DNA of 64,000 nucleotides from Siphonobacter curvatus (GTDB lineage: Bacteria; Bacteroidota; Bacteroidia; Cytophagales; Spirosomataceae). The stretch spans positions 310,090-374,089 of the forward strand of contig NZ_PTRA01000002.1 in NCBI RefSeq assembly GCF_002943425.1, given 5' to 3'. The notes under the pieces are model-generated. The model searched no databases. It worked only from the letters and a program-made list of their open reading frames with translations, and had not been told where the DNA came from. A program made the translations under genes and the position numbers. Position 1 is the first letter of the stretch; each line of letters begins with the position of its first letter. Of this stretch, positions 60,167 to 61,566 are shown one piece after another.

Positions 60167-60487
60167 TTAATGAGAAGAAGAAACTTTCATTAGTACCAGC
60201 CCTGCGATAATTAACACAGCAGCCAAAATGCGAGTGAAATTAACTGACTCACCCAGTAGAATGATTCCCACCAGAAAAGCTCCTACCGCTCCTATGCCCG
60301 TCCAGATTGAATAAGCCGTACCGAGGGGTAAGGTTCGCATGGCTACGGACAACAGCCCGAAACTGGCCAGCATGGCTATAAGCGTGAGGATAGAGGGGGT
60401 AAGGCGAGAGAATCCCTCGGATTGTTTCATGAAGTACGCCCAGACGACTTCCAGCAGTCCAGCGAAAATTAAATAGATCCAGGCCAT
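60167..60487 (-). CDS. sugE: SugE/Gdx-type small multidrug-resistance protein (guanidinium exporter)
   Basis: 106 residues, four membrane helices. The chosen start (ATG 60487) gives MAWIYLIFAGLLEVVWAYFM; an in-frame ATG at 60604 would add 39 residues that read through two RNA hairpins and is rejected. Compared with remembered E. coli SugE, blocks such as AGLLEVVWA with the essential Glu, GFSRLTPS, SVAMRTLPLGTAY, WTGIGAVGAF and LLGES align closely. The SugE/Gdx branch is known to exchange guanidinium for protons. The guanidine-II-like riboswitch just upstream supports that role over general multidrug export. Confidence 0.93.
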   Translation of the reverse strand: MAWIYLIFAGLLEVVWAYFMKQSEGFSRLTPSILTLIAMLASFGLLSVAMRTLPLGTAYSIWTGIGAVGAFLVGIILLGESVNFTRILAAVLIIAGLVLMKVSSSH

Positions 60488-60511
60488 GGTTTGGCTTTTT
60501 TTAAAATAAGC

Positions 60512-60557
60512 CGGGCCGTCCCGAATGCGATTCCCTGCGTGGGGGAGGTCGTCCTCC
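60512..60557 (-). promoter_or_regulatory. Guanidine-II (mini-ykkC) riboswitch candidate
   Basis: On the minus strand two hairpins lie in tandem: GGAGG-ACGA-CCTCC (60557-60544) and CGGG-ACGG-CCCG (60523-60512), separated by 20 nt. Both loops are ACGR closed by G-C, the defining signature of the guanidine-II class, and the second hairpin ends 24 nt before the sugE start. Stem lengths (5 and 4 bp) are within what is expected. Seen in sequence; binding not tested. Confidence 0.82.
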
Positions 60558-60705
60558 AGTGACTTAACGTAGTTCGTGCTGTCTAAACTTCCCCAGGCAT
60601 TCAAAAATTCCCGTTTGGGTTCATTTTTAAATTCTGGCAGTAATGGCTATGCGGTAAAGTAGGTCGCTATGCTACACAAAGCCCTTTTCATAATCGAATC
60701 ATTCT

Positions 60706-61080
60706 TTACTTTCCAATAATCTGCTTCCGGTGGGCCAGTCCCCAGTAATGCAGTTCTGCGATTACTTTTTCCAGCGACAGCCCGTGCGGCGTAATCGAGT
60801 ACTCAACCGTCGGTGGGAACGTATCATGCACTTCCCGTTTCACGAGTTGGTTCGATTCGAGCAATTTCAATTCTTTCGATAGTGTCTTATCGGTAATCCC
60901 GGCGACCTCTTTGGAAATCTGTTTAAAGCGTTTAGGCCCCGAAGAAGATAAAGCGAACAAAATCAGCAATTTCCACTTCCCTTCCAGAGCCTCCAGGGCA
61001 TCTTTGATCGATAACATCGTACTAGGGCAACCTTCGCTAGTAAGCATCAGACTGGGTTTTAAGGGTACGTTACTATCCAA
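60706..61080 (-). CDS. HxlR-family transcriptional regulator
   Basis: 124 residues with the HxlR winged helix: CPSTMLSIKDALEALEGKWK, LLILFALSSSGPKRFKQISK, GITDKTLSKELKLLESNQLV, VEYSITPHGLSLEKVIAELH. Cys18 sits in the position where some HxlR proteins sense electrophiles or redox state. It is divergent from a DoxX gene, a common pair in which the regulator represses its neighbour. Confidence 0.92.
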   Translation of the reverse strand: MDSNVPLKPSLMLTSEGCPSTMLSIKDALEALEGKWKLLILFALSSSGPKRFKQISKEVAGITDKTLSKELKLLESNQLVKREVHDTFPPTVEYSITPHGLSLEKVIAELHYWGLAHRKQIIGK

Positions 61081-61131: not shown

Positions 61132-61164
61132 CCTAGTTTCGTGCCATTCCAAATCAATCAGCAC

Positions 61165-61566
61165 ATGAAAAAGAACCGAATCTTGCACGTAACCCTTTGG
61201 CTTATCCAACTCATGCTGGCGGCAAGCCTGCTCTGGGCCGCCAGCATGAAACTATTTCAACCCCTGGATACCTTAGCGGCGATGTGGCCCTGGACGAATC
61301 AGGTACCCCGATCGCTGGTGACGCTTACCGGAATGGTCGATGTACTGGGAGCTTTGGGTCTGGTATTACCGATGCTGGTTAACGTGAAACCTGCACTGAC
61401 GCCGCTCGCAGCGGTGGGAGTAATTCTGCTGATGATCACCGCCAGTATTTTTCACATCGCCCGCGGGGAGGTATCGCTCATTGGTGTAAATGTTATCTTT
61501 ACACTACTGGCCGCCGGGGTCGCCTGGGGTCGATGGACGAAGGTACCCATACGTTCATTTTTGTAA
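61165..61566 (+). CDS. DoxX-family membrane protein
   Basis: 133 residues from ATG 61165, four hydrophobic segments (about 8-25, 48-68, 75-92, 100-118) with the DoxX pattern LLWAASMKLFQPLDTLAAMW, GMVDVLGALGLVLP and LLMITASIFHIARGE. Divergent from HxlR and probably repressed by it. Members are linked to thiol or oxidative stress; no reaction assigned. Confidence 0.85.
   Translation: MKKNRILHVTLWLIQLMLAASLLWAASMKLFQPLDTLAAMWPWTNQVPRSLVTLTGMVDVLGALGLVLPMLVNVKPALTPLAAVGVILLMITASIFHIARGEVSLIGVNVIFTLLAAGVAWGRWTKVPIRSFL

Follow-up and report, generated by a model that had tools for sequence, protein, structure and literature searches.

The gdx gene and its likely promoter

The 64-kb stretch of Siphonobacter DNA analysed here (the window) carries on its minus strand a gdx (sugE) gene, preceded by a leader with two tandem hairpins. 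The gene, the leader motif and the promoter element, like the conservation and the scarcity of Shine-Dalgarno (SD) sequences described below, were computed directly. Gene and promoter are placed as follows:

60602–60609, minus strand: AATTTTTG, likely leader promoter, one mismatch from TAnnTTTG (from the exact element of relatives)
60167–60487, minus strand: gdx (sugE), for a 106-residue SMR-family protein, predicted guanidinium exporter, ATG at 60487 (NCBIfam, Pfam and PDB matches, residues)

The gene product scored 128.3 bits against the SugE equivalog model of NCBIfam, NF008512 (cut-off 126), and is an SMR protein by Pfam PF00893, of which it is the only match in the genome; its best PDB matches were 8vxu and 6wk5. 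Parts of PMC7695847 name E13, S42 and W62 for Gdx and describe W16 as conserved in Gdx, with Gly or Ala instead in Qac; all four residues are present in the window sequence. By its NCBIfam, Pfam and PDB matches and these residues the gene is a Gdx-type SugE, with guanidinium export as its predicted transport function, which agrees with a preliminary description of this DNA that had read the gene context as guanidine export. The Gdx of Siphonobacter sp. BAB-5405 (G003), of the same genus, is 98% identical.

The preliminary description had also placed the gene start at 60487 instead of at a TTG at 60604, and this placement is supported because the start M-[S/A]-W is common to the relatives and the TTG lies within AATTTTTG; a start at 60604 was rejected on the same grounds. 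The −7 promoter element of Bacteroidota has the consensus TAnnTTTG. The exact element was found no more than 80 nt upstream of the first hairpin, P1, in 32 of 42 aligned leaders (a raw count), in 30 of these at 36–54 nt before the aligned stretch; that of the window, with its one mismatch, stands at 49 nt and, judged from its sequence, is likely the promoter of the leader.

Upstream of gdx lies a gene for an HxlR-type regulator (60706–61080, minus strand), divergent from a DoxX-like gene (61141–61566, plus strand). At codon 5 of gdx (60475–60473 in the window), tyrosine is encoded by TAT in all 36 genes that have Tyr there (42 examined), and never by TAC.

A guanidine-II aptamer upstream of gdx

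Two GC-rich hairpins make up the aptamer:

60544–60557, minus strand: P1, guanidine-II aptamer hairpin, GGAGG-ACGA-CCTCC (sequence, Rfam RF01068, leader alignment)
60512–60523, minus strand: P2, guanidine-II aptamer hairpin, CGGG-ACGG-CCCG (sequence, Rfam, leader alignment)

Read directly on the minus strand, P1 and P2 are 20 nt apart and P2 is 24 nt from the ATG at 60487, so that the ACGA and ACGG hairpins reported in the preliminary description are exact. Both have the ACGR loop closed by G-C that marks guanidine-II; the 20-nt linker falls within the range of 7–40 nt given for the class in a portion of PMC7544219, and the 24 nt to gdx match the closeness of such elements to genes of guanidine export or metabolism. 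The covariance model RF01068 (Guanidine-II) matched at 60560–60511 (minus strand) over its full length with 32.6 bits, above the gathering score of 32, and was the sole Rfam match over threshold in the 64-kb window. Since this score is barely above the threshold, the relatives carry more weight than the single window match. A search for the paired core GGACGRCC-N10-40-GGACGRCC gave a single occurrence in the window, where 0.01 is expected from shuffles, and a single one in the 6.4-Mb genome; because a reversed control pattern is as frequent genome-wide (also once), the pattern alone is not decisive at that scale.

Occurrence across the family

A protein search of 222 genomes of the family gave 46 matches of at least 116 bits, with the next at 83 bits, and the 46 above this gap are taken as the Gdx clade; two low-scoring gdx remnants (L065 and L066, in G236 and G124) are excluded from the gene count. 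RF01068 gave 31 matches in 30 of the 222 genomes (26 genomes over the cut-off), and coordinate comparison placed all 31 just upstream of a Gdx-clade gene. The motif was present in 12 of the remaining 15 clade leaders and was missing before the Gdx-clade genes of G150, G136 and G174 (L053, L059, L061), which brings its occurrence to 43 of 46. Ten of the 12 motif-only leaders matched RF01068 at the same place below threshold (20.6–30.1 bits), and two (L035, L060) gave no RF01068 match even below threshold, though the motif was found in them. With 12 of 43 leaders known from the motif only, at 30.1 bits or less or unscored, the Rfam threshold evidently misses members.

These 43 leaders, together with the Rfam match, bear out the guanidine-II identity suggested in the preliminary description, and we regard it as virtually certain that the window element is a guanidine-II (mini-ykkC) riboswitch. 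Guanidinium binding and loop kissing would be carried over by analogy from the accepted model of the class.

Some loci depart from the common arrangement. The gdx of L059 (G136) is very like those of its cluster neighbours, but its leader has lost the aptamer and resembles theirs only in the last bases ahead of the ATG. G104 has a second gdx copy on contig 15 (L006), with a good riboswitch match and a seeming frameshift near the start; its other copy, on contig 3, matches over residues 1–104. In G022 (L001, positions 1501–1620), P1 is followed by P2 and three P2-like hairpins with loops AAGA, ATGA and AAGA, and thus P1 plus four P2-like hairpins precede gdx.

Wider samples gave RF01068 in at least 20 of 390 genomes of the order, all 20 of them Spirosomataceae (15 candidates scored per genome), and in at least 3 of 395 genomes of the phylum (the genome of the window plus two in which it stands before sugE-like genes); such many-genome searches score few candidates per genome, so these distribution counts are lower bounds. 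Our own model, R1, was built from 42 leaders including that of the window, so that its matches on those leaders prove nothing; in 295 genomes of the class it matched the window and locus L202, the latter a false positive because the matched stretch lacks ACG loops. Sections of a 2025 review put guanidine-II at 611 examples, mostly from Proteobacteria (PMC12186494). In the open-licence papers that were covered, largely by title, we found no report of guanidine-II in Bacteroidota, a coverage too limited for the Bacteroidota occurrence to be claimed as unreported. The riboswitch belongs to a known class, with a family-wide Bacteroidota set, extra hairpins and a probably SD-free platform as its particular features.

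Leader anatomy and covariation

Alignment of 42 leaders (41 distinct; L001 of G022 was omitted for its repeated P2) showed two further hairpins:

60533–60543, minus strand: PL, linker hairpin CCC-ACGCA-GGG, abutting P1 (leader alignment)
60494–60511, minus strand: P3, hairpin between P2 and the start codon, GCTT...AAGC (leader alignment)

ACG is invariant in both aptamer loops of all 42 leaders. The exceptions to ACGR are ACGC in P2 of L035 and AACGR, a P1 loop one base longer, in L045, L049 and L060, all from outside the main Gdx cluster; the same longer loop is found in L092 of Acinetobacter. Cells of the alignment are paired at 96.1% in P1, 98.8% in P2, 89.6% in PL and 77.2% in P3.

Two-sided changes were found in P1 at pairs 4-18 and 7-14, in two sequences each (GGAAG/CTTCC in L035 and L039; AGAGG/CCTCT in L038 and L047), and in P2 at pair 40-49, again in two sequences (CCGG in L038 and L047). 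Within PL, pair 20-28 goes from C-G to U-A in two sister sequences (CTC/GAG, L021 and L042) and pair 22-26 has several pair types; three of the four P3 pairs are changed on both sides, in 3, 8 and 6 sequences. Each couple with a two-sided change consists of sisters in the gene tree and so represents one event. Conservation of the loops in relatives and compensatory change in both stems had been set out in the preliminary description as checks, and both are found, each of the changes in P1 and P2 being a single event.

For the structure as a whole, 90.8% of cells are paired, against 86.2% in shuffled alignments (0 of 500 as high, kinship uncorrected), and pairs with two-sided changes number 8, where shuffles give 4.5 (4 of 500 reach 8, kinship uncorrected). 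None of the 500 shuffles reached the real alignment in two-sided-change cells or in covariation score; 65 of 500 did so in further pair types. PL is weak when linkers are folded singly, with 8 of 42 below 0.05 against shuffles and a value of 0.18 for the window. The hairpins PL and P3 and the −7 promoter element upstream are new here; PL, P3 and the misfit of the usual SD-masking platform, considered next, had been missed in the preliminary description.

A probably Shine-Dalgarno-free platform

As described in parts of PMC9300104, PMC9094411, PMC9561414 and PMC12186494, the class is translational: the ligand makes the loops kiss, which frees a masked SD. The P1–P2 kiss itself is disputed, and NMR of the E. 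coli switch, in the portion of PMC9300104 that treats it, gave an intermolecular P1 contact in its place. A masked SD is the usual platform of guanidine-II and no part of the aptamer definition, and the window leader has no SD through which this platform could act. Passages of PMC9976891 state that Bacteroidia ribosomes fail at SD recognition, and passages of PMC6847099 that Flavobacterium tunes initiation through structure and an A at −3. Among 493 crude gene calls from three genomes of the family (Siphonobacter, G000, the window's; Dyadobacter, G036; Spirosoma, G218), SD-like 4-mers occurred at −18 to −5 in 16 and at −60 to −47 in 39, a comparison to be read as SD rarity and nothing more, because the control interval may fall in neighbouring genes and the starts are crude. 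As it stands, the SD-masking platform as published does not fit the Spirosomataceae leaders, and we propose hiding of the start codon because Bacteroidota hardly use SD sequences.

A proteobacterial-type platform, in which a weak SD, AGGTC, would be masked by P3 or by the 3′ strand of P1 and exposed by the ligand, seems unlikely, although it has the class descriptions behind it (PMC9300104, PMC9561414, PMC12186494, each in part). In many relatives AGGTC stands roughly 10 nt ahead of the ATG, where it is the leader consensus; GACCT of P1 is complementary to it. At the same position Acinetobacter leader L090 has a full GGAGG, paired with P1 in the fold. The window, however, has AAGCC at this place and no SD, and the rarity of SD-like motifs in the family and the failure of Bacteroidia ribosomes to recognise them likewise argue against such a platform. 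In several leaders with a changed AGGTC, moreover, the P3 partner changes along and the P1 partner does not, though 22.8% of P3 cells are unpaired; since P3 covaries and P1 does not, AGGTC–P1 pairing was rejected as the main OFF helix.

Transcription attenuation with P2 as an intrinsic terminator stem is very improbable. In the window, CTTATTTTAA follows directly after P2 and scores terminator-like, but only 7 of 42 leaders have at least five T in the eight bases after P2, for which reason P2 was rejected as a terminator; such a terminator would also be stabilised by the ligand and so turn the exporter off, against the usual logic. That there is no riboswitch, and that the hairpins arose by chance or are protein binding sites, e.g., of the HxlR regulator encoded upstream, can practically be dismissed even with a window score merely 0.6 bits over threshold and the HxlR gene nearby, given the motif in 43 of 46 orthologous leaders, the two-sided stem changes and the invariant ACG of both loops, and no support was found for an HxlR operator.

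Proposed occlusion of the start codon

Our preferred reading, to which we assign a probability of about 0.6, is that a guanidine-II riboswitch switches Gdx translation ON with guanidinium via access to the start codon. Ligand binding, the ON direction and start-codon occlusion are the steps that we infer. When guanidinium is absent, the 5′ strand and loop of P2 would pair with GUC-AUG and codons 2–4, with P3 folded inside, and this anti-P2 helix would close off the start region. Guanidinium, when present, would be bound by the ACGR loops of P1 and P2, which kiss in the accepted model of the class; the ligand would stabilise P2, the start region would be released and Gdx would be translated. 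The control point would then be access to the start codon and not an SD sequence. We think it highly probable that the element is an ON switch for export. Occlusion of the start codon by the P2 strand, a modelled feature, stands at even odds because its basis is folding, codon choice and the GYY conserved ahead of the ATG, with no support from covariation.

60477–60526, minus strand: predicted OFF-state helix enclosing P3 and the ATG, which excludes P2 (minimum-energy fold)

The predicted helix pairs 60526–60520 (ATTCGGG, the 5′ strand of P2) with 60483–60477 (CCTGGAT, codons 2–4) and, in a second part, 60517–60516 with 60489–60488. Minimum-energy folds of many leaders lack P2 and contain the anti-P2 helix with GUC-AUG and codons 2–4, P3 lying inside. 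The P2-less ensemble of the window is 2.2 kcal/mol below its P2 ensemble, and the OFF state is favoured in 37 of 42 leaders, by a median of 2.8 kcal/mol. At least four anti-P2 pairs are expected in 35 of 42 leaders in the P2-less ensemble and in 32 of 42 in the free ensemble; the helix is not formed in 7 of the 42. Of 19 leaders from outside the family, 6 have four or more expected anti-P2 pairs (one at 4.0), including both tested Acinetobacter leaders.

At bases −3 to −1, which belong to neither the aptamer nor the coding sequence, GYY stands in 33 of 42 leaders vs 48 of 493 genes. GYY here pairs with GRC of the P2 loop; an A at −3 would favour initiation. Native codons 2–5 favour the OFF state over usage-weighted synonymous codons, with a mean rank of 0.266 where 0.5 is expected (Wilcoxon p = 4e-6, kinship uncorrected). 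All 32 serines at codon 2 are encoded by TCC or TCT, vs 11 of 51 codon-2 serines of the three genomes, and the tree requires only nine TCC–TCT changes, all transitions. Since conserved serines elsewhere in these genes are equally biased (AGY in 31 of 31 at position 42, TCR in 28 of 31 at position 23), the codon-2 choice is weak, suggestive evidence; a further point against it is that all 6 paralogues with alanine at codon 2 likewise use GCY there.

Cells of the anti-P2 helix are paired at 89.4%, but only one of its 11 pairs has changed on both sides, so the helix draws no support from covariation and the covariation signal comes from P3. Much of the pairing is due to fixed letters, and a degree of complementarity is unavoidable, since the aptamer and the conserved protein start constrain GGGAC and AUGUCC in part. 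A kissing-ready fold leaves the region from −3 to +9 more open in 40 of 42 leaders; taken by itself, the AUG triplet becomes more open in only 29 of them. In the window, openness of this region rises from 0.41 to 0.62 but that of the AUG falls from 0.87 to 0.55, and codons 1–3 differ little between states (0.46 vs 0.40 unpaired). The constraint to form P1, P2 and an open linker has a median cost of 10 kcal/mol.

If the preferred reading is true, the ligand hairpin and the initiation region are mutually exclusive. The set of family leaders in Bacteroidota is a natural test of how a translational riboswitch can work without an SD, and also of the fate of an expression platform once its gene enters an SD-less lineage.

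Origin of the gene and its riboswitch

The gene tree holds 81 SMR proteins (106 columns), 45 rows being from the family; 20 distant or odd loci are omitted by name, and identical rows and proteins of insufficient or excessive length, including that of the frameshifted L006, are left out as well. Family Gdx sit among those of Alphaproteobacteria and Acinetobacter, at a distance from those of E. coli and of two other Bacteroidota families, a grouping that makes horizontal transfer of gdx likely. The label Cytophagales-type given to sugE in the preliminary description is therefore not upheld, as the tree draws the gene away from other Bacteroidota Gdx. The 45 family rows need six label changes, at least two of them forced by well-supported branches (on few columns), and exchange has with six such changes probably occurred more than once. 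Support is weak (88/70) for the cluster that unites the window with Acinetobacter and most members of the family. Outside it lie L022, L045, L049, L053, L057, L060 and L061, which include all three AACGR leaders and two of the three motif-less ones.

We infer that gene and riboswitch arrived together and that the SD disappeared later. Somewhat short of even odds, and offered tentatively, is the fuller proposal that the platform was rebuilt for an SD-less lineage so that the P2 strand masks the start, gene and sensor having come from SD-using Proteobacteria and the SD having been lost after arrival.

Comparison with known systems

The protein resembles structure 6wk5, which we take to be Gdx-Clo, of the Gdx/SugE SMR subtype (106.9 bits over residues 1–105); it shares W16 with this subtype and shows no notable difference from it. 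The guanidine-II riboswitches (RF01068) of Escherichia coli gdx and Pseudomonas aeruginosa have the same two GC-rich ACGR hairpins closed by G-C, likewise close before Gdx/SugE, and the linker of the window is within the published range. For an E. coli leader (L158), RF01068 gives 49.3 bits. Unlike these, the window leader has no SD and has the extra hairpins PL and P3, and in it the P2 strand is predicted to pair with the start region, an interaction that in the leader from E. coli has just 0.7 expected pairs.

The Gdx proteins closest to the family from outside it include those of Acinetobacter (L090, L092) and of ten alphaproteobacterial loci (L078, L094, L097–L099, L102, L104–L107). Their linkers can form a hairpin when taken alone, below 0.05 against shuffles only in L090, L092 and L107, and L099, L102 and L104–L107 have a hairpin just before the ATG in the fold, as P3 is in the family. 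The Acinetobacter and alphaproteobacterial leaders have kept an SD, which L099, L102 and L104–L107 hold in the pre-ATG hairpin, whereas the family does not. All ten alphaproteobacterial leaders have a canonical P2 and a P1 loop extended by two bases inserted before ACG, CCACGN (CCACGA, CCACGT or CCACGC); five match Rfam below threshold at 20.3–27.3 bits and five give no match, and they may constitute an uncatalogued guanidine-II subtype. Within the phylum, leaders from two other Bacteroidota families (L070 and L071) have the same canonical aptamer before a sugE-like gene, at 46.1 and 42.8 bits, but differ from that of the window in having other stem sequences, no CCC/GGG linker hairpin and a distant Gdx.
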